Positions 15,966 through 29,546 of a DNA stretch of 41,125 nucleotides are shown piece by piece (positions within the stretch are counted from its first letter, which is position 1; every line of letters starts with the position of its first letter). The DNA comes from Candidatus Omnitrophota bacterium (lineage in GTDB: Bacteria > Omnitrophota > Gorgyraeia > Duberdicusellales > Duberdicusellaceae): positions 1 to 41,125 of the forward strand of contig JAGGSQ010000039.1 of the NCBI GenBank assembly GCA_021159015.1, in the 5' to 3' direction. Made by a program: the position numbers and the translations under genes. Under the pieces are notes generated by a model. The model was not told the DNA's origin. It did not search any database and saw only the letters and a list, made by a program, of their open reading frames with translations.

Positions 15966-16709
15966 ATGAAACAAAATATTTTGGCAGAAATAACTTACGA
16001 TGGAACTTTGTTCTACGGCTGGCAGAGACAAAAGGCAGATATTCCTACTGTTCAGGAAATTCTGGAGGAGGCCCTCTTTAAACTGTTTGGTCAACCTATA
16101 AAAACTTATGCTTCCGGCCGCACGGATAGAGGCGTCCATGCTTGCCGGCAAGTAGTAAATTTTTTTATTCCGCGCTCTTTTCCCCTGGTTAATATTAAAA
16201 AAGCACTTAATTCTTTTCTTCCGGCGGCGGTAAAAATCATAAAGGTAAAAAAGGCAGGATATGATTTTCATGCCCGTTTTTCCGCTCATAATAAAACCTA
16301 CCGTTATATTATTCTCAATTCTGCTCGACCCGACGTTTTCTGGCGCAATTATGCTTGGTTCATACCTCAGAAGCTGGATGTGGCAGGTATGGCGGAAGCT
16401 GCCCAGATTCTTAAGGGGGAGAGGGATTTTTCTTCTTTTGTCAAAGGTGCTTCAAGGAAAGATTGCCGCCGTAAGGTTTATAATGTAAAAGTAAAAAAGC
16501 GAGGACGTTTTGTCTACATTGACATCGAAGCAAATGGTTTTCTGTACGGTATGGCACGGGCTATGGTGCGGGCCTTAGTTGATGTGGGGCAGAGAAAGCT
16601 TTCTCTGTTAGGTTTGAGAAAGGCAATAGCAGCACGGCAAAGAAAATTTATAGGAAAAGATGCTCCCGCTTGCGGGCTTTACCTTATGAAGGTTGATTAT
16701 AATGGATAA
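15966..16709 (+). CDS. truA: tRNA pseudouridine(38-40) synthase TruA
   Basis: This 247-residue pseudouridine synthase acts on the tRNA anticodon stem-loop. The catalytic Asp54 lies in A-S-G-R-T-D-R-G-V-H-A, and E-I-T-Y-D-G-T-x-F-Y-G-W-Q-R-Q (8-22) is the family's N-terminal signature. F-H-A-R-F-S-A, K-T-Y-R-Y and A-N-G-F-L-Y-G-M-A-R-A-M-V follow. The region before the ATG is T-rich with no Shine-Dalgarno. The stop overlaps the start of the membrane-protein gene. Confidence 0.96.
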   Translation: MKQNILAEITYDGTLFYGWQRQKADIPTVQEILEEALFKLFGQPIKTYASGRTDRGVHACRQVVNFFIPRSFPLVNIKKALNSFLPAAVKIIKVKKAGYDFHARFSAHNKTYRYIILNSARPDVFWRNYAWFIPQKLDVAGMAEAAQILKGERDFSSFVKGASRKDCRRKVYNVKVKKRGRFVYIDIEANGFLYGMARAMVRALVDVGQRKLSLLGLRKAIAARQRKFIGKDAPACGLYLMKVDYNG

Positions 16710-18174
16710 TAAAGACAAATATTATGATTTGTTTTCGGGGGGGATTATTCTTTTTATAGCAGTAGTACAGCTAGCCCGTTGGGGGATGCTGCCTCAGTTT
16801 ATTGATGACTATTTTCATCTTCATCAGGCTTTGGGGTTTATCAAAGCAGGAGGGTGGAGCGGAATTGCTTTCTGGGATTATGCTCCTTTTGGTCGGCCTA
16901 ATCTTTATCCTCCTTTTTACCATATACTAATTGCTTTTTTGCTAAAACTAGGCTGGGGGAAAATATTTGTTCTCAAGATTATCAATATTTTAATAAGTAT
17001 AAGTTTTTTTACAGTAGTCTGGTATGTTTTAAGAAAAGTCTTTAGCAGCTTCTTTGGCTTTCTTAATCTCTTGATTCTTTTTAGTACTTTCTCCTTCTAT
17101 GAGTCAGTTTGTGCCAATTCTCCTGCTACCTTAGCTCTTATCTTTGTTTTTGTGAGCTTTTTTTTCCTGAAGCAGCAGAGATTAAAAAAATCTTTAGTAT
17201 TTGCCGTATTGGCTTTTTATACCCATGCAGGTATCTCTTGGGCTTTCTTTCTCAGCCTTCTCTTTGCTTCTTTTTACCAGCGGCAGTACCTTAAGGTGGC
17301 TACGGGGGCGTTTTTATTCTATCTTCCTCTCCTGTGGCATCAGCTTAAATATATTGGCTATTTTCACCAAGGCATTCTTTTCGAAAACTTCTTTATTCAT
17401 TTTAATCCTACTCTTCTTATTTTATCTTTAGTAGGAATTATGGTGGCTTTTAAGAGAAGAGAGAGATATGCCTGGCTGCTTTTATTTTCATTCTCACTCT
17501 TTATGGTATTTTTTAGATATCCTTTCCGTATTTTGTCTGCCCAGGGAGTAGTAGGATTGTCTTTGCTCAGTACTCTGGCGTTAGAATACTTATATGGTCT
17601 TATAAGAGAAAGATATCGAGGGGTTTATATGGCGTTTATACTCATTTTTTTCCTTTTTTTTAATTGCAGTATTGTACGCCATAAGGATAAATTTTATTTC
17701 TATCCTCTTTATGCCAGTCTTTCCCAATTCATTAGTGGTAATTTTTCCTCTTTTTTAGAATTTAGAAACATAGCTTCTTCGCGTTACTTTCGTAAAGTAG
17801 TAAAATTAATAAAGAGAAATACTGCTTCTTCAGATATAGTAGGCTCTAATATACCTATAGCCAGTGAAATCTTAGGGGCTCTATGTAACCGGAGTGTTTC
17901 TTCTTCTATGTTGACAGAAGTGTCTCCTTTTCGTCGCCCTAATCCTTTACGGGCAAATCTTATAGTCTGGTTTCGTCAATTGAACCAAAGAGCGACAATC
18001 TTTCCTCAGAAAGAGAAAGAACTTTGTCGTGATGTATTATATGAAGATGATATATCTTTTGTCTGCCGCACAGATTCTCTCTATAAAGAAAAAGTAATTA
18101 AAACAAAATTTCACTTTATCTATATATACATTCTCTTAGTTTCTTTATTGGCTTTTCTGGCTTTTTCGGACTAA
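16702..18174 (+). CDS. Polytopic membrane protein, possible GT-C-type glycosyltransferase
   Basis: This roughly 490-residue protein has about ten hydrophobic membrane segments and a soluble C-terminal part, and ends with another hydrophobic segment near 472-487. After the first membrane segment comes F-I-D-D-Y-F-H-L-H-Q-A, then W-D-Y-A-P-F-G-R-P-N-L-Y-P-P-F-Y-H. An acidic-His loop followed by a G-R-x-x-x-Y-P-P motif resembles GT-C-fold membrane glycosyltransferases that use lipid-phosphate sugars. The assignment to that fold is by topology and loop pattern only. I chose ATG 16702 over an in-frame TTG at 16693. The gene is probably the last of the run that precedes the lysS promoter. Confidence 0.7.
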   Translation: MDNKDKYYDLFSGGIILFIAVVQLARWGMLPQFIDDYFHLHQALGFIKAGGWSGIAFWDYAPFGRPNLYPPFYHILIAFLLKLGWGKIFVLKIINILISISFFTVVWYVLRKVFSSFFGFLNLLILFSTFSFYESVCANSPATLALIFVFVSFFFLKQQRLKKSLVFAVLAFYTHAGISWAFFLSLLFASFYQRQYLKVATGAFLFYLPLLWHQLKYIGYFHQGILFENFFIHFNPTLLILSLVGIMVAFKRRERYAWLLLFSFSLFMVFFRYPFRILSAQGVVGLSLLSTLALEYLYGLIRERYRGVYMAFILIFFLFFNCSIVRHKDKFYFYPLYASLSQFISGNFSSFLEFRNIASSRYFRKVVKLIKRNTASSDIVGSNIPIASEILGALCNRSVSSSMLTEVSPFRRPNPLRANLIVWFRQLNQRATIFPQKEKELCRDVLYEDDISFVCRTDSLYKEKVIKTKFHFIYIYILLVSLLAFLAFSD

Positions 18175-18221: not shown

Positions 18222-19649
18222 ATGGAGGAGAAAATTAAGAAGCTGGAGGAATTTAGGCAGAGATATTATAATCCCTATAGTTTTACCTCTTTCTCTAAGG
18301 ATTCTTCCTTAGCTGAGATTAAAAAAGAATTTTCGCCGCAGCGAGCTGTGTCAACGGCAGGGCGTTTGATTTCGTTGAGAGAACATGGTAAAAGCGCTTT
18401 CTTTGATATTGCTGACGCTACGGGCAAAATTCAATGTTATATAAAATATAATCTTGCCGGCCAGGAACAATTTGAGCTTTTCAGCCAGCTTGATTTAGGA
18501 GATATTGTGGGGGTAGAAGGAAATCTCTTTCTTACTCACAGTGGTGAAAAAACTATCTTAACTAAGAAGATAACCCTTCTTTCTAAATGTCTACATACTC
18601 TGCCGGAAAAATGGCACGGGCTTAAAGATGTAGAGTTGAGGTATCGTGAGAGATATTTGGATTTGATAGCCAATGTCCAAAGTACGGAAATATTTAGTAA
18701 GCGGGTAGAAATTGTAAAACGAATAAGAGAATTTTTTGAGAAAGAAGGATTTTTAGAGGTAGAGACCCCTATGCTTCATTCCTTAGCAGGAGGAGCGACG
18801 GGGCGTCCTTTCGTTACTCACCACAACGCTCTTAATATAGACCTTTATTTACGTATTGCTCCTGAGCTTTATTTGAAGCGAATTCTGGTAGGAGGATTTG
18901 ACCGTATTTACGAAATAAATCGCTCTTTTCGTAACGAAGGAATATCAGTGAAGCACAATCCTGAGTTTACGATGCTGGAAGCCTATGCCTGTTATCAGGA
19001 TTATACCTATATGATGAAACTCACCCAGGATTTAATCTGCCGCTTAGCGGAGGCTATGTACGGATCTTTAGAGATCGAATATGGGGGCAAGCGTATAGAT
19101 TTTAAGCCTCCCTGGCGGCGTATTTCCTTAGCTAATTTGCTCAAAGAAGAATTTGGACTAGGCTATTCTGTTACAGAAGAAGAGTTCGTTAAAAAGATGT
19201 CTCAAGAGATAGAAATTAAAGAGGGTTTGAGCCGTTCCCAAATAATAAATTTAATTGAAGATTTAATAGAAAGCCGTTTCTTTGGCGAGCAGCCGGTATT
19301 TGTAACAGATTTCTATACCTGGATGTCTCCCCTGGCTAAAAGAAAAAAGGAGGAGCCTAACCTTGTAGAGAGGTTTGAATTATTTTGCGCGGGAATGGAA
19401 CTAGCCAATGCTTATTCTGAGTTAAACGATCCTCAAGAGCAAAGAAAGCGCTTTCTGGAAAAAGCTAAAAGTGACGAATATTCAGAGGGGAAGATAGACT
19501 ATGATTTTCTTAAAGCTTTAGAATACGCTATGCCGCCGGCCGCCGGCCTGGGTATTGGCATAGACCGTTTATGCATGGTTCTCTTAAACCAGCCCTCCAT
19601 TAAAGACGTGATATTTTTCCCTTTGCTTAAGCCCAAAAATGAAACTTGA
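18222..19649 (+). CDS. lysS: Lysyl-tRNA synthetase, class II
   Basis: This 475-residue class II LysRS has the anticodon-binding OB domain (about 55-150) with S-L-R-E-H-G-K-S-A-F-F-D-I. The catalytic core follows, with motif 1 F-L-E-V-E-T-P-M-L, motif 2 R-S-F-R-N-E-G-I-S-V-K-H-N-P-E-F-T and motif 3 G-L-G-I-G-I-D-R-L. The N-terminus (L-E-E-F-R-Q-R-Y-Y-N-P-Y) fits the family, so the ATG at 18222 is well supported although no ribosome site precedes it. The mRNA is probably leaderless. The stop overlaps the lolC/E gene. Confidence 0.96.
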   Translation: MEEKIKKLEEFRQRYYNPYSFTSFSKDSSLAEIKKEFSPQRAVSTAGRLISLREHGKSAFFDIADATGKIQCYIKYNLAGQEQFELFSQLDLGDIVGVEGNLFLTHSGEKTILTKKITLLSKCLHTLPEKWHGLKDVELRYRERYLDLIANVQSTEIFSKRVEIVKRIREFFEKEGFLEVETPMLHSLAGGATGRPFVTHHNALNIDLYLRIAPELYLKRILVGGFDRIYEINRSFRNEGISVKHNPEFTMLEAYACYQDYTYMMKLTQDLICRLAEAMYGSLEIEYGGKRIDFKPPWRRISLANLLKEEFGLGYSVTEEEFVKKMSQEIEIKEGLSRSQIINLIEDLIESRFFGEQPVFVTDFYTWMSPLAKRKKEEPNLVERFELFCAGMELANAYSELNDPQEQRKRFLEKAKSDEYSEGKIDYDFLKALEYAMPPAAGLGIGIDRLCMVLLNQPSIKDVIFFPLLKPKNET

Positions 19650-20811
19650 GGCCTGGCTTGCCTTTCGGTATGTCTTCCGTAACCGCAGTCGTCATATATC
19701 ATTTATAAGTTTGGTATCTCTGGCCGCCGTAAGTTTAGGGGTTGCGGCGCTTGTAATTGTAATTGCCGTAATGAGTGGTTTTGATGAAGACTTAAAGTCT
19801 AAGCTTCTCAGTCTTAATTTTCCTTTAGTAGTTACGCTGGAGAAAGAAAATTGTTCGCTAGTTAAAGATATTAGTAAGATAGAGGGAGTAAAGAATGTAG
19901 TGCTTTTTTCTCAGAATCAAGTAGCTATCAGAAGAGGTAAGAGTGTATACCCGGTAATGCTGGAAGCGGTTAGTTTTGGTTCTTATTCTTTGCCACGTTG
20001 GCAGAAATATCTTAAGGAAGGTAGCTTTCAAAAGGGATTGGCGGTAGGGAAAGGAATTGCACAGCGTTTTTTTCTGGGAGAAGGAGAAGAAATTCAGATT
20101 CTTTCTCTTAGTGGTAAGAAACTTAAATCATATACTTTCAGAATAGGAGGAATATTTAGTGTAGGCATGTATGATTTTGATAATACGCTGATAGTAGGAA
20201 GCTTTTCTTGTCTGGAGAATTTTCTCCTGGAGAACCATCCTCGTTATTACCTGGGAGTTGAGGTTACAAGAAGCAGGCTGTATAACTTAGAAGAGATAAA
20301 ACGTAGAATAGCTTCTTTAGATTTAGCCGGAATTATTGCTATAACTACATGGCAGGAACAAAATCAAGCTTTGTTCTCTGCCCTCAAACTTGAGAAAATA
20401 ACTATGTTTATTATCTTAAGTTTAATTGTGTTAGTTGGCTCTTTTAATATATTTTCTACCTTAACCGTGAAAGTAGTAGAGAAAACAAAAGATATAGGAA
20501 TAATGAAAAGCCTTGGCTTAAGTCCTTTAAGAGTTAGCGCGGTTTTCACTCTGCAAGGGATAATAATTGCTTTTTTGGGAGTTTTTATGGGAGTAGTGTT
20601 AGGAGTGGGGGTATGTTTCCTCCTTAAAGAATATCATTTTATTCATCTTCCTTCTCAAATATATTATATAGATTATCTGCCGGTTCTTATTAATCCTAGA
20701 GATATACTTACAATATCATTGGCAAGCATAGGTCTGTGTATCTTTTCTAGTTTGATTCCTTCTTTATGGACACGAAAGATTAGCGAGTCTGAAGCTTTAA
20801 GGTATGAGTAA
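19639..20811 (+). CDS. lolC: LolC/LolE-family lipoprotein-releasing ABC permease
   Basis: This 390-residue inner-membrane permease has one N-terminal transmembrane segment (about 22-45) and three at the C-terminus (about 253-280, 300-335, 350-375), with a periplasmic domain between them, which is the FtsX/MacB topology. The N-terminus (W-L-A-F-R-Y-V-F-R-N-R-S) and the V-A-V-M-S-G-F-type motif match LolC/LolE. With LolD next door it would release lipoproteins from the inner membrane for sorting to the outer membrane. Only one permease gene is present, so the transporter is likely a homodimer of this subunit. Confidence 0.9.
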   Translation: MKLEAWLAFRYVFRNRSRHISFISLVSLAAVSLGVAALVIVIAVMSGFDEDLKSKLLSLNFPLVVTLEKENCSLVKDISKIEGVKNVVLFSQNQVAIRRGKSVYPVMLEAVSFGSYSLPRWQKYLKEGSFQKGLAVGKGIAQRFFLGEGEEIQILSLSGKKLKSYTFRIGGIFSVGMYDFDNTLIVGSFSCLENFLLENHPRYYLGVEVTRSRLYNLEEIKRRIASLDLAGIIAITTWQEQNQALFSALKLEKITMFIILSLIVLVGSFNIFSTLTVKVVEKTKDIGIMKSLGLSPLRVSAVFTLQGIIIAFLGVFMGVVLGVGVCFLLKEYHFIHLPSQIYYIDYLPVLINPRDILTISLASIGLCIFSSLIPSLWTRKISESEALRYE

Positions 20812-21496
20812 TATGATTATTGAGGCTAAATTAGTGAGTAAAGTCTACCTTGATGTTCATGCAGTGGTTAAGGCGTTGGAGAAGGTTAGTATAGGAGTGA
20901 GGGAGGCGGAATATGTAGCTATAGTGGGGCCTTCGGGGGCAGGGAAATCTACTCTTTTGCATATTTTGGGCGGATTGGAGAGGCCTACAGAAGGGAAAGT
21001 CTTCTTTCGCAAGAAAGATATCTCACGTATGAAAGCAAGTAGTATATATCGTTTGCGCAATGAACATTTAGGGTTTGTTTTTCAGTTTTATTATTTGATA
21101 TCGGAATTAAATGTCTGGGAAAATATACTTTTGCCGGCTTCTATAAAACTGCACTATCTTCCTCAGAAGACACGAGACTATGCAGAAGAGCTAGCTGAAA
21201 TGTTAGGGCTAAAGGAGAGAATTCACGCTTTTCCCCATCAACTTTCCGGCGGCGAGAGACAGAGAGTTGCTTTAGCCAGAGCCTTAATAAATCGCCCGCA
21301 AATTTTGTTTTGCGATGAGCCAACCGGCAATCTTGATACGGAAGCAGCTGCTATTATCAAACAAGTTCTTCGAGATATAAATTGTAAAAACTCTACTACG
21401 ATAGTTTTAGTAACCCATAATCTTGATTTAGCCAGAGAAGCCGAAAGGATAATCTATCTCAATAATGGCCGGATTGAGAATGAATCTTCTGCCTAA
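20804..21496 (+). CDS. lolD: LolD-family ABC transporter ATPase
   Basis: This is a 230-residue ATPase with Walker A G-P-S-G-A-G-K-S-T (42-50), the signature L-S-G-G-E-R-Q-R-V-A near 147 and Walker B L-F-C-D-E-P-T-G-N-L-D. The sequence is of the MacB/LolD/FtsE subgroup and the gene lies directly after the LolC/E permease, so lipoprotein release is the likely job. The ATG at 20804 overlaps the upstream stop. An in-frame ATG at 20813 has better spacing from the upstream AAGG and could be the real start. Confidence 0.9.
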   Translation: MSNMIIEAKLVSKVYLDVHAVVKALEKVSIGVREAEYVAIVGPSGAGKSTLLHILGGLERPTEGKVFFRKKDISRMKASSIYRLRNEHLGFVFQFYYLISELNVWENILLPASIKLHYLPQKTRDYAEELAEMLGLKERIHAFPHQLSGGERQRVALARALINRPQILFCDEPTGNLDTEAAAIIKQVLRDINCKNSTTIVLVTHNLDLAREAERIIYLNNGRIENESSA

Positions 21497-22441: not shown

Positions 22442-22954
22442 ATGCTCTGCGATATTTGTGGGAAGAGGCCCGCTACAGTCCATTTAACAGAAATTATTAA
22501 TGGCAAAGTAAAAGAAGTACATTTGTGTGAGGAATGTGCGCGCAAAAAATCTGAACAGCTCCAAGTGCAGTTTAATATTGCTGACTTCCTTTACGACTTT
22601 GTCAACGCCTCCTCTTTAGAGGCAGAGAAGCAAGAAAAAGAGATTTGTCCTAATTGTGGCCTTAGCTATCTTGGTTTTAAAAAGCAGGGAAAATTTGGAT
22701 GTAGTCGCTGTTATGATGTTTTCAAGCCTAAAATTCTGCCTCTTTTGCAGAAAATTCATGGGTCTATTCAGCACCGGGGCAAGTATCCCTCTGTTAAAGA
22801 ATACCGCCATCTGTCGCTTCGCCAGAAAATAGAAAATCTGAAAGAATATTTAGCCCGAGCCATAAAATTAGAAGAGTATGAGGAAGCCGCACGTCTGAGA
22901 GACCAAATTAGAGAACTAGAAAAGAAAATACAGAAGGACAAAGGTAATGTTTGA
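22442..22954 (+). CDS. mcsA: McsA, activator of protein arginine kinase
   Basis: This is a 170-residue zinc protein with two pairs of C-x2-C at 3/6 with 29/32 and at 69/72 with 87/90, followed by a C-terminal UVR motif (about 137-165, Y-E-E-A-A-R-L-R-D-Q-I-R-E-L). This is the layout of McsA, which binds and activates the McsB kinase. The gene starts 3 bases after ilvE and overlaps mcsB by 8 bases. In Bacillus the operon is ctsR-mcsA-mcsB-clpC; here the CtsR repressor gene is absent. Confidence 0.92.
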   Translation: MLCDICGKRPATVHLTEIINGKVKEVHLCEECARKKSEQLQVQFNIADFLYDFVNASSLEAEKQEKEICPNCGLSYLGFKKQGKFGCSRCYDVFKPKILPLLQKIHGSIQHRGKYPSVKEYRHLSLRQKIENLKEYLARAIKLEEYEEAARLRDQIRELEKKIQKDKGNV

Positions 22955-24002
22955 GGAGTTGTTGCAGGGAGTAGGGGAGTGGCTTAAAGGTCGAGGGCCA
23001 GACTCGGATATAGTAATATCTACCCGGATAAGAATTGCCCGCAATCTAGACATATTTCCCTTTCCTAATAGAATCTCGACCTCTGAAGCTGATAAACTTT
23101 TCCGCAATTTGCAGGAGGCTGCCGGGAAAAGTAAAACGCTTAAGCAGTTAAAGTTTTTCCGTATGGAAGATATAGAACCGCTGGACAGAGAATTTCTTGT
23201 GGAACGTCATTTGATAAGCCAGGAGCATGCTTTGTGGCCTAAAAATAAAGCGGTAATGCTGAGCGAAGATGAAATTATTTCTATTATGGTTAACGAAGAA
23301 GACCATCTCAGGATTCAAGTTATAAAGTCGGGTTTTGATTTTGTTACCGGATACCGTCTCGCTTCTAAAGTGGAAGATGAAATTGCGCGTAAAGTAAAGT
23401 TTGCTTTTCATTCAGACATTGGTTTTCTTACCGCCTGTCCTACTAATGTAGGCACAGGCTTGCGCGTTTCAGCTATGGTACATCTGCCGGCTTTAATCAT
23501 TACCAAAAGGGTAAATAAAATACTGGAATTTGTCTCTAAACTTTCTTTTGCCGCCCGGGGATTTCTGGGAGAAGGCACACAGGCCATAGGCAATTTTTTT
23601 CAGATATCTAACCAGGTTACTTTGGGACTGGGGGAAGAAGAAATAATTGATAATCTTTCGAGTGTGATTCGCCAATTGAGAAGGCAGGAGATTGAGGCGC
23701 GCCGTTATATGATGACAAAATTTAGGTATTCTTTGGAAGACCGCATCTGGCGAGCTTTAGGTATTTTGAAGACGGCACGTATAATCTCTAGCCAGGAAAC
23801 TCTGCAACATCTTTCTTTATTGCGTTTAGGCATGGATTTGGGTATAATTAAAGGTCTAAGTAAGGAACTACTCAATAATATTTATATCTCAATACAGCCA
23901 GCTCATTTGCAGAAGTTACAAGAGAGAAAACTTTCGCATGCGGAAAGAGATATTATTAGAGGGAATTTGTTAAGAGAAAAGTTAGGAGGCATAAGTGTTT
24001 AA
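22947..24002 (+). CDS. mcsB: McsB, protein arginine kinase
   Basis: This 351-residue phosphagen-kinase-fold protein phosphorylates arginines of proteins and so marks them for ClpCP degradation in Bacillus. S-T-R-I-R-I-A-R-N (25-33), N-E-E-D-H-L-R-I-Q and the loop R-G-F-L-G-E-G-T-Q-A-I-G-N-F-F-Q-I-S-N-Q (nucleotide and catalytic region) are present. The C-terminus has R-D-I-I-R-G (334-339), close to the R-D-x-x-R-A motif through which Bacillus McsB senses phosphoarginine. The gene is flanked by its partners mcsA and clpC. Confidence 0.94.
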   Translation: MFEELLQGVGEWLKGRGPDSDIVISTRIRIARNLDIFPFPNRISTSEADKLFRNLQEAAGKSKTLKQLKFFRMEDIEPLDREFLVERHLISQEHALWPKNKAVMLSEDEIISIMVNEEDHLRIQVIKSGFDFVTGYRLASKVEDEIARKVKFAFHSDIGFLTACPTNVGTGLRVSAMVHLPALIITKRVNKILEFVSKLSFAARGFLGEGTQAIGNFFQISNQVTLGLGEEEIIDNLSSVIRQLRRQEIEARRYMMTKFRYSLEDRIWRALGILKTARIISSQETLQHLSLLRLGMDLGIIKGLSKELLNNIYISIQPAHLQKLQERKLSHAERDIIRGNLLREKLGGISV

Positions 24003-26430
24003 TCGTTTTACAGAAAGAGCGCGAAAAGTTTTACTGCTGGCGAAGGAAGAAGCGCGTCGTTTTAATCACGATTATATCGGAACCGAACATATTCTGCTCG
24101 CTCTTGTTTCAGAACGAGAGGGCGTTGCCGCGACGGTTATTCAGAATTTAGGGGTAGATTTGGAGAATATCCGCCAGGAGATAGAGAAATTTATGCATCC
24201 AGGTCCTCCTACACAAGTTCTGGGAGAACTGCCCTTTACGCCACGTGCTAAGAAATCTTTAGAGCTGGCGGCAGAAGAAGCGCGCAGTTTAGGGCATAAC
24301 TATATTGGTACCGAACATATTCTTTTAGGATTAATCAAAGAGTCGGAGGGCTTAGCTTCGCAGGTCCTGGTTCTTTTAGGGTTAGAATTGGAGAAGGTTA
24401 GGACGCAGATTATGGAATTGCTGGGGGAAGCACGGGGTACCAATTTCTCTTCTTCCCATCAGAGCAAGAAAAAGACGCCGGCATTAGACTCTTTTGGGCG
24501 TGACCTTACCGCTTTAGCGCGCCAGGGGGCTTTAGATCCTGTTATTGGCCGCGAGAAGGAAATAGAAAGGGTAATTCAGGTTCTCTCTCGCCGTACTAAA
24601 AATAATCCTGTACTTTTAGGTGAAGCAGGAGTGGGAAAAACTTCTATTGTAGAAGGTTTAGCTCATGCCATAATTGCTGCCAATGTACCAGAGATATTGA
24701 GAGAAAAAAGAATAATCTCTTTAGATTTAGCGTTAATGATTGCTGGTACTAAATACCGCGGCCAATTTGAAGAAAGGATAAAAGCAGTAATGGATGAGAT
24801 ACGTCGTTCTAAAGACGTGATAATTTTCATTGACGAATTGCATACATTGGTAGGAGCCGGGGCAGCAGAAGGAGCAATTGATGCTTCTAATATTCTTAAG
24901 CCGGCCCTCTCCCGCGGTGAAATTCAATGTATTGGAGCTACAACTCTAGATGAGTATCGCCGTCATATAGAAAAAGATGCGGCATTAGAGAGGCGTTTTC
25001 AGCCGATTTTTGTTGATCCACCGAGTGTAGAAGAAACCATAGAGATACTGAGAGGTTTAAGGGATAGATACGAAGCACACCATCGTGTAAAGTTCAGCGA
25101 CAAGGCTTTAGAAGCAGCCGCTTCGCTTTCTGACCGTTATATTTCTGGGCGTTATCTTCCTGATAAATCTATTGATCTAATAGATGAAGCAGGTGCCCGT
25201 GCTCGCCTTAATGCTTTGACTGTGCCGCAGGAGGTTAAAGAACTAGAGAAAAAACTGGAAAATATTACGCGGGAAAAAGAAGCATACATAAAACAACAGA
25301 ATTTTGAAGAGGCCGCGAAACTGAGAGATCAGGAAAGAGAACTAAAACTAGCCTTAGAACAAAAACGCAGAAAGTGGGCCAAAGAACGTGATAAGATATT
25401 GCCACAAGTTGATGAAGAAGATATAGCTAAGCTTGTTTCTCAGTGGACGGGTATCCCTGTTTTTCGCTTGGAAGAGGCAGAATCGGAGAAATTGTTAAAG
25501 ATTGAGGAGGAGCTTTCTAAAAGAGTAGTAGGACAAACGGAGGCAATAAAAGCTATTGCTAAGGCTCTACGCCGTTCGCGGGCAGGCATTAAAGATCCGA
25601 AACGCCCCATTGGCTCTTTTGTTTTTATGGGGCCTACCGGGGTAGGTAAGACTCTTTTAGCTAGGGCTTTGGCCGAATTTATCTTTGGAGACGAAGAGGC
25701 ATTAATTCAACTGGATATGTCGGAGTATATGGAAAAGTTTAATGTTTCTCGTCTTATTGGCGCACCTCCGGGTTATGTAGGTTATGAAGAAGGAGGCCAG
25801 CTTACAGAAAGAGTAAGACGGAGACCCTATTCGGTGGTATTGTTAGACGAGATAGAGAAAGCACATTCAGATGTATTTAATCTGCTGCTTCAGATTTTGG
25901 AAGACGGCCGTCTCACAGACAGTTTTGGTCGGCGGGTTGATTTTCGCAATACCATACTCATTATGACTTCTAATGTAGGGGCTGGCATTCTCAAGAAGAA
26001 AGGATCGCTAGGTTTTAAGGTAATTAGTGAAGAGGTAGAATACGAAGATATGAAAAATATGCTTATGGAAGAAATGAAAAAAACCTTTAAACCCGAATTT
26101 CTTAATCGTTTAGATGAAGTAATAGTATTTCGTCCCTTAAGCAAAGACAACTTAGGTGAGATCGTCGATATAGAAATTGGCTACGTAAACCAGAGGCTTA
26201 AAGAACAGCATCTTCAAGTAGAGTTAGACCAGAAAGCAAAGGATTTTCTCATTGAGAAAGGATTTGATGAAGTATTTGGCGCGCGTCCTCTAAAGCGAGT
26301 TATCCAGCGGTTTTTAGAAGACCCTCTAGCTGAAGATATTATTGCCGGAAAGTTAGATAAAACCAGGAGTCCTGATAAGGAACTGGTCGTTAAAGTAAGC
26401 GAGAAGAATGGCAGTTTGTATTTTGGATGA
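23995..26430 (+). CDS. clpC: ClpC, AAA+ unfoldase
   Basis: This 811-residue class I Clp ATPase feeds substrates to ClpP. Two N-terminal Clp-N repeats (about 1-150, each with Y-I-G-T-E-H-I-L-L) can bind phosphoarginine. AAA1 has G-E-A-G-V-G-K-T near 210 and F-I-D-E-L-H, and the middle domain has a UVR motif near 436 (F-E-E-A-A-K-L-R-D-Q). AAA2 has G-P-T-G-V-G-K-T near 546 and the L-N-R-L-D-E block. The middle domain and the mcsAB linkage make it ClpC, not ClpA or ClpB. The start is GTG, with GGAGG 5 bases upstream and an 8-base overlap with mcsB. Confidence 0.97.
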   Translation: MFNRFTERARKVLLLAKEEARRFNHDYIGTEHILLALVSEREGVAATVIQNLGVDLENIRQEIEKFMHPGPPTQVLGELPFTPRAKKSLELAAEEARSLGHNYIGTEHILLGLIKESEGLASQVLVLLGLELEKVRTQIMELLGEARGTNFSSSHQSKKKTPALDSFGRDLTALARQGALDPVIGREKEIERVIQVLSRRTKNNPVLLGEAGVGKTSIVEGLAHAIIAANVPEILREKRIISLDLALMIAGTKYRGQFEERIKAVMDEIRRSKDVIIFIDELHTLVGAGAAEGAIDASNILKPALSRGEIQCIGATTLDEYRRHIEKDAALERRFQPIFVDPPSVEETIEILRGLRDRYEAHHRVKFSDKALEAAASLSDRYISGRYLPDKSIDLIDEAGARARLNALTVPQEVKELEKKLENITREKEAYIKQQNFEEAAKLRDQERELKLALEQKRRKWAKERDKILPQVDEEDIAKLVSQWTGIPVFRLEEAESEKLLKIEEELSKRVVGQTEAIKAIAKALRRSRAGIKDPKRPIGSFVFMGPTGVGKTLLARALAEFIFGDEEALIQLDMSEYMEKFNVSRLIGAPPGYVGYEEGGQLTERVRRRPYSVVLLDEIEKAHSDVFNLLLQILEDGRLTDSFGRRVDFRNTILIMTSNVGAGILKKKGSLGFKVISEEVEYEDMKNMLMEEMKKTFKPEFLNRLDEVIVFRPLSKDNLGEIVDIEIGYVNQRLKEQHLQVELDQKAKDFLIEKGFDEVFGARPLKRVIQRFLEDPLAEDIIAGKLDKTRSPDKELVVKVSEKNGSLYFG

Positions 26431-26433
26431 TTA

Positions 26434-27315
26434 ATGAAAATTATTCCTCTCGCCGTAGCTCCCTTTTTTATTTTTTTCTTTATCTGCTCCGCTGCATGTT
26501 TGGCTCTTCCAGGTTTTAGGTGCCATTTAGATTTAGGAAGTGTTAATTCTGAGGGAAAAGAATCTATATTTCTAACTTTTGAGGGTATAATGAGAGATAT
26601 AGAAGAAGGGTGGCGGTTTGATGCTAAATCTGATTTAGTTGACAAACCTCTTCAGTCATTAGGCGATCTCTCCTTGCATGTGGTAATTGCCCCCTTAGTT
26701 AACAGCATACTTATAAGCCGCTCCTTTTATATAAAGACAGAGATAGACACTATCAAGAAAAGCTTCCGTATGGATCTAAACATAAAGGGAGTAGACTTTC
26801 AGCTTCTGCGCCATATATTTGTGCCTCAGCTTAATATAAAGGCTGCCACACGCGGAGAGATAAATGTGGCGGGAGATGAAAACAGAATATTTTGCCGTGG
26901 TGTGCTCTATTTATATAACGGTAATCTGGAGAATTTGTATTATTTCCGGGAAGCAATGGTCAAATTTTATGGAGATTACCCTTATATAGAAATAGTAAAT
27001 TCATATGTGATTGTGCCTACGCAGGGACGGGTAATGTTAGGAGGTATTCTTAATTTAGAAGAGCTTAGTTCTTCACCAGACTATAAAAAAAATTATCTCA
27101 AGTTCAATGAGGCTGATTCATATAGGGTTGAACAGAGAAAAATAGAGGATTATCATAGGCAAGAGTATTCTTTTCTTTCTTTTTTAAACAAAGACTATTC
27201 TCTTAAAGATAATTTTTGCCGTAGTTATCGTGTGAGTCCTCATAGTTTCTTTATTTTTAGCAAGAAACCATTTGATAGCGGTAAGCGTATAAAGTTAAAG
27301 GCAGACTATGAGTAG
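26434..27315 (+). CDS. Exported protein of unknown function upstream of mlaEFD
   Basis: This 293-residue protein has an N-terminal hydrophobic segment (residues 3-17) ending C-S-A-A-C-L-A-L-P, so it is exported. Cys22 after S-A-A could be a lipoprotein site, or cleavage could follow A-C-L-A. The rest is beta-rich with alternating hydrophobic residues, for example V-V-I-A-P-L-V-N-S-I-L-I and Y-I-E-I-V-N-S-Y-V-I-V. G-E-I-N-V-A-G and G-R-V-M-L-G-G-I-L-N-L are reminiscent of the repeating strands in AsmA/TamB-type periplasmic proteins. That resemblance is by eye. The gene starts 3 bases after clpC and overlaps mlaE by 8 bases, so a role with the Mla-type transporter is the best guess. Confidence 0.7.
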   Translation: MKIIPLAVAPFFIFFFICSAACLALPGFRCHLDLGSVNSEGKESIFLTFEGIMRDIEEGWRFDAKSDLVDKPLQSLGDLSLHVVIAPLVNSILISRSFYIKTEIDTIKKSFRMDLNIKGVDFQLLRHIFVPQLNIKAATRGEINVAGDENRIFCRGVLYLYNGNLENLYYFREAMVKFYGDYPYIEIVNSYVIVPTQGRVMLGGILNLEELSSSPDYKKNYLKFNEADSYRVEQRKIEDYHRQEYSFLSFLNKDYSLKDNFCRSYRVSPHSFFIFSKKPFDSGKRIKLKADYE

Positions 27316-28069
27316 ACTAATTAAACTGGCTTATTATTTGGGTTCATTGGTGTTTTTGCTGGGGGAAATTATTTCAAGCTTTTTTAGCCGTCAAAAGAAA
27401 AACCTGCTGGATATTATAAACCAGATGATATTCCTGGGGCTTGATTCGCTGGGTTTAGTCTCTGTGGTTGCTCTTTTCACCGGTATTATTATTGCTTTTC
27501 AGAGCGCTTACCAATTACAACGACTTTCTTCTGAGATATACATTGCTTCTCTGGTAGTTCTGTCTTTAACACGGGAATTAGGACCTGTTTTGGCCTCTTT
27601 GATTGTAGCAGGACGCAGTGGAGCAGCAATTACGGCCCAAATAAGCAGTATGAAAGCTACAGAGCAGTTAGATGCTCTGAAGACATTGGGGGCAGAACCT
27701 GTAGAATATTTGATTATGCCGCGTTTTATTGCCCTGGTAGTTACACTTCCTCTTCTAATAGTATATGCTGATTTTTTAGGAATTCTGGGTGGCTATATTG
27801 TAGGCGGCAGCAAATTCGGCATGAGTTTTGGGCTCTATTTCCGTATGAGTTTAGAGGCTCTGCAGTTTAAAGACATCCTGGCCGGTTTAATCAAGTCTTT
27901 CGTATTTGCAATTATTATCGGCCTGATATCAGCCAGGGAAGCTTTTGATGCTTCCGGGGCTTCGGAGGGTGTAGGCATTGCCGTAAATAAAGAGATAGTG
28001 AGATCTTTTATTATGATTATAATCGCTGATTGCTTTCTTACGACTCTTTTTTATTCCATATTGCGATGA
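27308..28069 (+). CDS. mlaE: MlaE-family ABC permease
   Basis: This 253-residue MlaE/TTG2B-type permease has about five or six membrane segments. Typical family blocks are L-T-R-E-L-G-P-V-L-A-S-L-I-V-A-G-R-S-G-A-A-I, E-Q-L-D-A-L-K-T-L-G near 118-127 and a C-terminal region with S-R/A-x-G-A-S-x-G-V-G. In the Mla system it forms the inner-membrane core that moves phospholipids between the membranes. It overlaps the exported unknown upstream and mlaF downstream (ATGA), so the genes are coupled. Confidence 0.93.
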   Translation: MSRLIKLAYYLGSLVFLLGEIISSFFSRQKKNLLDIINQMIFLGLDSLGLVSVVALFTGIIIAFQSAYQLQRLSSEIYIASLVVLSLTRELGPVLASLIVAGRSGAAITAQISSMKATEQLDALKTLGAEPVEYLIMPRFIALVVTLPLLIVYADFLGILGGYIVGGSKFGMSFGLYFRMSLEALQFKDILAGLIKSFVFAIIIGLISAREAFDASGASEGVGIAVNKEIVRSFIMIIIADCFLTTLFYSILR

Positions 28070-28818
28070 TAGAAATACATAATCTTTATAAGAAGTTTGG
28101 CTCTCAAGAAGTTCTGCGTGGTGTGGAACTTAATATAGAGAGAAGCTCCACCCACGCTATTATAGGACGTTCTGGTTGCGGCAAAAGTGTTCTTCTAAAA
28201 CACATAATTGGTTTGCTCCAGCCCGATAGAGGTGATATATTTATAGGAGGGGTGAATATTGTCGGGATAGGCGAGAAAGAGAAAAAAGATATCAGGCTAA
28301 AAATCAGTATGGTTTTTCAAGAATCAGCCCTTTTTGATTTTTTGAATGTGGAAGAAAATGTAGGTTTTGTACTTCAGAGGTATTTCCCCTGGGATAGAAA
28401 AGAGATAAAAGAAAGGGTAAGAGAAAGCCTGGAGATGGTAGGCCTTTATCATATAGAGAAGAAATATCCCAAAGAACTTTCGGGGGGTATGAAAAAGCGG
28501 GTAGCAATTGCGCGTGCCATTGCTTTCCGTCCTCGCGTTATTCTCTATGATGAGCCTACTGCTGGCATTGACCCTATTGGTGCGGATGTTATAAATTCTT
28601 TAATAGTAAGGCTTCATGACCAGTTGGCGATAACCTCAGTGGTGGTAAGTCATGATCTGGAAAACGTGAGGAAAGTAGCTGATACTATTTCTATGATGTT
28701 GGGAGGCAGGATTATTTACAGCGGCAGGAAGGATGATTTGTCTCTCTGCCACGACGAGAGAGTTAAACAGTTTGTTTCGGGTAGTCGCCAGGGTCCTATT
28801 AGTGCTCAGGAAGTGTAA
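28066..28818 (+). CDS. mlaF: MlaF-family ABC ATPase
   Basis: This roughly 250-residue ATPase has Walker A G-R-S-G-C-G-K-S-V (34-42), signature L-S-G-G-M-K-K-R-V-A-I-A-R-A and Walker B L-Y-D-E-P-T-A-G-I-D-P-I. The L-S-G-G-M-x-K-R-V-A form and the A-G-I-D-P-I are diagnostic of MlaF within the ABC family. I chose ATG 28066, which makes an ATGA junction with mlaE; a longer frame from TTG 28030 adds a hydrophobic stretch that is really the mlaE tail in another frame. Confidence 0.94.
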   Translation: MIEIHNLYKKFGSQEVLRGVELNIERSSTHAIIGRSGCGKSVLLKHIIGLLQPDRGDIFIGGVNIVGIGEKEKKDIRLKISMVFQESALFDFLNVEENVGFVLQRYFPWDRKEIKERVRESLEMVGLYHIEKKYPKELSGGMKKRVAIARAIAFRPRVILYDEPTAGIDPIGADVINSLIVRLHDQLAITSVVVSHDLENVRKVADTISMMLGGRIIYSGRKDDLSLCHDERVKQFVSGSRQGPISAQEV

Positions 28819-29546
28819 TGAAAAGTAAAGAAATAGCCCTGGGGTTTTTTATTCTAGGAGCGTTGATTCTGTTAACGGCAGGATTTATTCTGGTTAAAGA
28901 CCTCAGGATTTTTAATTCTGCCTATACCATAAAGGCTTCTTTTGATTTTGGCGATGGGATAAAAGCTTTCTCGCCCGTAAGAATTGCTGGCGTAGATATA
29001 GGAGAGGTAGAGAAAGTTGAGTTACAACGTAAGGGAGGCGAGACAAAGGTTTTAGTTTATGCTTCTATAAAGAAGGAAGTAAGGATTCCGGTAGGCAGTG
29101 AAGTATTTATAAATAACCTGGGAGTGCTGGGAGAGAAATATTTAGAGATTATTCCGGCTCGCAATTCTACTCAGTATCTAAAACCGGGGGCGATTATTAG
29201 AGGCGAGAATTCAGTGCCTTTATACAAGATGGGCCGTCTGGCTAAGAGCATTATGGATGATTTTTCTTTGACTATGGCTCAACTAAAAATCTTTATTTCT
29301 GATGAACAATTTCGCAGTTCTTTGTACGACTTAGTTTTTAATTTAGATAAAGCTTCCGTAAGAATCAATAAGATACTCGACAATTTACAGACGGCACACG
29401 GTTCTTTGGGCAGGCTATTGTATAGTGAGGAGTTATATGAAGAAGCAAAGGGTTTTCTTACAGATATCAAAGAGCACCCCTGGAAGCTTCTTTATATTCC
29501 TCGCGAAGATAGAATACGTTTGCGCCAGAAGAGCCATAAACGTTAG
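28818..29546 (+). CDS. mlaD: MlaD-family MCE-domain protein
   Basis: This 242-residue protein has one N-terminal membrane anchor (about 7-25) and a single MCE domain (about 36-115) with F-G-D-G-I-K-A-F-S-P-V-R-I-A-G-V-D-I-G and L-G-V-L-G-E-K-Y-L-E-I. A helical tail with I-L-D-N-L-Q-T-A-H-G-S-L-G-R-L-L follows. MCE proteins form the periplasmic hexamer that passes lipid to or from MlaE. The first base overlaps the mlaF stop. mlaA, mlaB and mlaC homologues are not in the window; the exported protein upstream may replace one of them. Confidence 0.93.
   Translation: MKSKEIALGFFILGALILLTAGFILVKDLRIFNSAYTIKASFDFGDGIKAFSPVRIAGVDIGEVEKVELQRKGGETKVLVYASIKKEVRIPVGSEVFINNLGVLGEKYLEIIPARNSTQYLKPGAIIRGENSVPLYKMGRLAKSIMDDFSLTMAQLKIFISDEQFRSSLYDLVFNLDKASVRINKILDNLQTAHGSLGRLLYSEELYEEAKGFLTDIKEHPWKLLYIPREDRIRLRQKSHKR

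Follow-up and report, generated by a model that had tools for sequence, protein, structure and literature searches.

In a 41,125-nucleotide stretch of DNA from a Candidatus Omnitrophota bacterium (hereafter the window), we find that the gene lying directly upstream of mlaEFD, here called X, encodes an exported, beta-rich protein that appears from its homologues to be a shortened descendant of the AsmA/TamB superfamily. We consider it probable, with a likelihood of roughly 0.55, that X is a periplasmic lipid-groove protein, which is co-encoded with MlaEFD and shares with it one phospholipid-trafficking module between the inner and outer membranes. This reading starts from the ancestry of X, its export signal, its predicted beta-rich fold and its gene order; from these we infer a trough and a function joint with MlaEFD.

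X is present as a single copy in its own genome. It stands in a row of genes that reads class II tRNA synthetase (lysS-type), lolC/E-like, lolD-like, ilvE, mcsA, mcsB, clpC, X, mlaE, mlaF, mlaD and radA (central features in Table 1), and Pfam and NCBIfam matches in the neighbouring genes indicate that the MlaE permease, the MlaF ATPase and the MlaD MCE protein are all present. Taken from the ATG at 28066, mlaF shares 4 bp with mlaE; the ORF list gives it a start farther upstream, the TTG at 28030. X starts 3 bp past the clpC stop, and its 3' end overlaps mlaE (27308) by 8 bp. A preliminary description of this DNA had pointed to the latter overlap. The overlap is indeed present, but we rejected it as a sign of X-mlaE coupling and give it little weight, because overlap is the rule in the window, affecting 26 of the 41 pairs of adjacent genes.

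Further features of the neighbourhood were observed. Positions 19639-20811 encode a lolC/E-like permease (FtsX/MacB-type) and 20804-21496 a lolD-like ABC ATPase, the pair standing upstream of ilvE; an ATPase gene resembling the lolD-like one is also found upstream of ilvE in many relatives. The mcsA and mcsB (arginine kinase-type) genes, at 22442-24002, lie directly 5' of clpC in most of the inspected relatives, and mcsA/mcsB before clpC is the arrangement of Firmicutes heat-shock operons. Positions 16693-18174 encode a hydrophobic, multi-span protein of 493 aa, whose ORF starts with TTG and which had no Pfam match.

Table 1. Features of the clpC-mlaD region, numbered by position in the window.
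Feature	Coordinates	Strand	Evidence or remark
clpC	23995..26430	+	Upstream neighbour of X, constant across relatives
Gene X	26434..27315	+	ORF, 293 aa; exported beta-rich protein, apparent short-form AsmA/TamB-superfamily descendant; no Pfam/NCBIfam match alone
Probable signal sequence of X (residues 1-24)	26434..26505	+	Sequence; modelled helix 8-22; hydrophobic N-terminus common to close homologues
Core of repeated beta strands predicted in X (residues 28-207; 12 of 14 strands)	26515..27054	+	AlphaFold2, DSSP; alternation test
Divergent C-terminal part of X	27055..27312	+	Family alignment; pLDDT of the window protein mostly <60
mlaE, lipid ABC permease	27308..28069	+	PF02405 9.9e-71; TIGR00056 221 bits (cut-off 212)
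mlaF, lipid ABC ATPase	28066..28818	+	Closest in NCBIfam: PRK11831 MlaF, 1.5e-55 (under the cut-off)
mlaD, 242 aa	28818..29546	+	PF02470 1.6e-17; single MCE domain plus ~110-residue C-terminal extension

That the 293-residue product of the ORF at 26434-27315 is exported and beta-rich, as first described, was borne out. An N-terminal signal sequence is readable in the protein (MKIIPLAVAPFFIFFFICSAACLALPG), and AlphaFold2 (mean pLDDT 75) predicted a helix at residues 8-22 followed by an almost all-strand structure of 14 strands. Residues 28-207 were modelled mostly with confidence (pLDDT ~90 over much of 50-210) and the last 80 residues poorly; in the family alignment, the sister taxon family shows a conserved C-terminal ending, 'ELRYxL...LKLRM...LGxExRKEF'. 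The TamB/AsmA-like alternation of inward and outward hydrophobic residues that had been ascribed to X is real but weak in the protein itself, where 29 of 2000 shuffles reached the observed value, and in its close family, whose average was reached by 70 of 5000 shuffles. In the long relatives it is strong (z=6.9, 0 of 5000 shuffles).

For a 487-aa long form, AlphaFold2 (pLDDT 83) predicted one long N-terminal helix and then ~28 strands. By our own estimate at ~4.8 A per strand, the predicted trough would measure roughly 7 nm in X and 13 nm in the long form. The strands of X may form an open trough that is lined with hydrophobic residues and could hold phospholipid acyl chains. Foldseek searches of the PDB with the X model and the 487-aa long-form model gave no significant match for either. 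TamB in 9xdc (Foldseek rank 5, E=0.76) was set aside as evidence, and a PDB match to 3rwx, obtained by sequence search with the family profile at E=6e-4, covered only 32 residues and was too short for interpretation.

The ancestry of X was traced through longer homologues. X alone had no family match in Pfam or NCBIfam, a Pfam search found no TamB C-terminal domain (PF04357) in X itself, and 3 of 27 close relatives matched the TamB profile, with a best E of 0.0026. Elsewhere in the phylum, homologues are often long (423-641 aa), and they share with the AsmA/TamB superfamily (TamB PF04357, AsmA PF05170, YhdP PF13116, DUF748 PF05359) an N-terminal hydrophobic TM helix, a Chorein-N/AsmA-like start, many repeated beta strands and profile matches. 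When 20 of these long homologues were compared with Pfam, TamB PF04357 was matched by seven (best 5.4e-6, above cut-off), DUF748 by five, YhdP by three and AsmA by two. With hhalign, the X family aligned to the long forms with a probability of 99.8% (E=5e-30 over 259 columns; reversed control 15.6%), and the long forms aligned in their N-terminal part to an Omnitrophota TamB profile with a probability of 95.4% (E=1.7e-8); alignment of the short forms with the Omnitrophota TamB profile, including the C-terminal profile comparison, was not significant. Because X aligns with long forms that match TamB, DUF748, YhdP and AsmA, we place its ancestry in the AsmA/TamB superfamily, and in this sense the earlier hunch was right, by way of the long homologues.

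The anchored N-terminus and Chorein-N domain of the long homologues are absent from X, in which a signal-type helix is followed by strands. X appears to have arisen from an AsmA/TamB-superfamily protein by N-terminal trimming, with loss of the membrane anchor and Chorein-N-like start. It differs from the superfamily in its length of 293 aa, in the secretion signal that replaces the anchored start, in having no profile match and in its eroded C-terminus, and since the anchored Chorein-N start is a defining feature, X is best filed as a trimmed derivative and not as a full member. The direction of change was presumably trimming, not extension, because the long form is widespread outside the order to which the window belongs. 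Within the superfamily, E. coli TamB is a rod of ~16 nm, and Chorein-N and beta-taco modules have been proposed to form hydrophobic half-tubes for phospholipids (PMC6791001); AsmA-like proteins have been proposed to supply the outer membrane with phospholipid (PMC10665443, PMC12436622).

A protein reduced in this way could also be a decayed AsmA-like remnant, a structural leftover or scaffold without lipid-conduit function. Such decay would be consistent with the missing N-terminal anchor and Chorein-N region, with the erosion of the C-terminus in the window's taxon family, and with an identity of only 11-23% between X and its relatives in the family alignment. However, X is an intact ORF whose length is nearly constant across the order (about 286-317 aa) and in which G/F/P positions are conserved; of the listed order genomes, just one (G041) has an internal stop. 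We therefore regard a remnant as very improbable.

X is found well beyond the window and is usually accompanied by mlaE. A scan of genome contigs with X as a single protein gave no matches, and a search of genome contigs with a narrower family alignment yielded eight Omnitrophota loci; a profile of 27 relatives detected X in 34 of 42 order genomes and, across the phylum Omnitrophota, in 142 of the 285 genomes sampled. The clpC-X-mlaEFD slot was present in 29 of the 30 order genomes with readable context, the exception being G030. Elsewhere in the phylum, mlaE is directly 3' of X in 106 of 124 X-bearing genomes (27/36 with order members removed, 71/79, and 8/9 read directly). Phylum-wide, this holds for 135 of 158 X-bearing genomes, a denominator that still counts genomes whose contig stops at X. 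Linkage to mlaEFD, for which co-occurrence had been suggested as a check, is therefore non-random, and the homologues are far from being never linked with it.

Each partner is nevertheless also kept without the other. In nine directly inspected genomes (G030, G085, G147, G167, G171, G175, G201, G219 and G281), X follows clpC and precedes radA or pilT without adjacent mlaEFD, and other mlaE copies sit elsewhere; a MlaE was found somewhere in nearly all of the checked X-bearing genomes. Conversely, clpC is followed by mlaE and X is absent in seven order genomes. On the MlaE tree, these seven require three changes, at least two of which are forced by well-supported branches, corresponding to at least two separate losses. 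Because adjacency holds in 135 of 158 genomes, yet X and mlaEFD are each retained without the other (nine and seven genomes, respectively), we conclude that the link is strong and is obligatory in neither direction. The word 'dedicated', which the preliminary description had used for X as a partner of MlaEFD, is weakened for the same reason. Among the individual loci, those with X between clpC and radA or pilT and adjacent mlaEFD missing were L113, L143, L147, L152 and L163-L167.

Part of the X-mlaEFD linkage may come from conservation of the whole neighbourhood (lolCD-like, ilvE, mcsAB, clpC, radA). X could then be an AsmA-superfamily factor for lipid or envelope assembly that works independently of MlaEFD, its adjacency deriving from an old neighbourhood of envelope genes (lolC/E, lolD, clpC, mlaEFD). 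The nine genomes that keep X at clpC|radA or clpC|pilT and the separate losses of X beside a retained mlaEFD argue for such a factor, as do the contact of X with clpC on its other side, the prevalence of gene overlaps in the window and the lolC/E plus lolD-like pair upstream. The predominance of mlaE as the next gene downstream and the near-universal possession of a MlaE by X-bearing genomes argue against it. We take independence from MlaEFD to be possible but doubtful, and we continue to prefer a module that X shares with MlaEFD.

MlaA, MlaB and MlaC are absent from the locus, as had been noted. MlaA (PF04333) and MlaC (PF05494) were found in 0 of 38 genomes (the own genome and 37 relatives) in searches whose E. 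coli controls matched, the own-genome result referring to an assembly rated 93% complete, and no MlaB-like STAS gene is present in the X locus. Compared with E. coli Mla (MlaFEDB-MlaC-MlaA), the X locus thus has homologues of MlaE, MlaF and MlaD and is without MlaA, MlaC and MlaB, a STAS gene instead accompanying the second mlaEFD set of the genome. No TamB was found in the own genome (93% complete), and 11 of the 38 genomes encode a TamB-type protein, roughly 390-510 aa in length. From the lack of MlaA, MlaB and MlaC, no new variant of the Mla pathway follows, because outside Proteobacteria MlaEFD usually stands as a bare core and MlaABC are the exception (PMC10665443).

The second mlaEFD set of the own genome lies on another contig (L057:4033-6399, G000 contig C19) and is without X. 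Its STAS (MlaB-like) gene stands directly before mlaE (L057:4458-4796), and an anti-sigma-factor (RsbW-type) kinase-like gene, recognised by eye, also precedes this set; a comparable arrangement is seen in L046. In other Omnitrophota mlaEFD paralogue loci, a small lipoprotein-like gene (~104-113 aa, 'WIRNGEPI' motif) lies between mlaE and mlaF (L169:4441-4782, L171:5293-5607, L173:5264-5578 and L179:5663-6004), and its product is a possible extra subunit, unseen in the window.

An operon with some of the same parts, mlaEFD-tolC-tamB, is known in Veillonella parvula (PMC10665443). There, as here, a bare MlaEFD without MlaA and MlaC shares an operon with an AsmA/TamB-type protein. In Veillonella, tamB and mla interact genetically and act antagonistically, loss of tamB partly suppressing an mlaD deletion (PMC10665443). 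The Veillonella tamB, however, is full-length (mutations mapped up to residue 1329) and downstream, whereas the Omnitrophota AsmA-like gene is short and upstream, and the Veillonella MlaD has 419 aa with an outer-membrane barrel, compared to 242 aa for the MlaD here. Brucella Mpc (mpcEFDA; PMC12436622) likewise combines MlaEF with an MCE protein in a simplified system that lacks part of the Mla set, but its MCE protein is predicted to be ~250 A long and its operon has no AsmA-like gene; deletion of asmA in Brucella gave no rescue of the mpc mutant (PMC12436622).

X might alternatively be, in line with the preliminary description, a dedicated periplasmic partner that sits on the MlaD ring and passes lipid to the outer membrane, replacing MlaC and MlaA. 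The lack of MlaA and MlaC among the 38 genomes and the conserved gene order are consistent with this, as is the length of MlaD in X-bearing loci (207-259 aa), which is well under the mean of 374 residues for long MlaD (PMC10665443). On the other hand, X and mlaEFD are lost independently, X would be too short to cross the periplasm, and the Veillonella MlaEFD, whose MlaD has an outer-membrane barrel, functions in the absence of MlaA, MlaC and any such partner. We consider a dedicated partner decidedly unlikely. Also unlikely is that X, as a soluble truncated AsmA-type groove, docks the MlaD hexamer and replaces the MlaC/MlaA hand-off, with the longer anchored forms found elsewhere being parallel conduits of the same machine.

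MlaEFD is a pump that runs on ATP and contains an MCE ring. In the module that we favour, X would be a secreted beta-groove protein, encoded between clpC and mlaEFD and derived from an inner-membrane AsmA/TamB-superfamily lipid conduit, the anchor and Chorein-N-like start having presumably been lost on the way from the long form. X and MlaEFD would be co-expressed as a single phospholipid-trafficking module in which MlaEFD, at the inner membrane, supplies the power for transport and X, in the periplasm, serves as a hydrophobic path or hand-off that is itself passive; X might act beside MlaEFD (compare TamB, opposite MlaEFD in Veillonella) or touch the MlaD ring. Their shared coding locus suggests that the expression of the passive conduit is matched to that of the pump. 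Because X alone, with a predicted ~7 nm and 14 strands, is too short for spanning the periplasm, a bridge would need the C-terminal extension of MlaD or another protein. The link from MCE rings to the outer membrane that the preliminary description envisaged would thus exceed the reach of X by itself.

We found no description of the X gene or of the clpC-X-mlaEFD order in the open-licence papers searched, and the main Omnitrophota genome survey makes no mention of Mla (PMC10066038). Proteins of this kind, and the idea that they pair with MlaEFD, have precedents; what is new is the variant seen in Omnitrophota, a short secreted form fixed 5' of mlaEFD. Phospholipid movement between the two membranes continues to be debated, with AsmA-like conduits and MCE/Mla pumps both involved, and Veillonella suppressor genetics ties the conduits to the pumps. 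The presence in Omnitrophota of an AsmA-superfamily gene that is usually directly 5' of mlaEFD makes this link testable by comparison, given the long anchored forms, the short secreted forms and the loss of either partner, and an AsmA-like protein cut to fewer than 300 residues is a natural test of how much conduit is needed.
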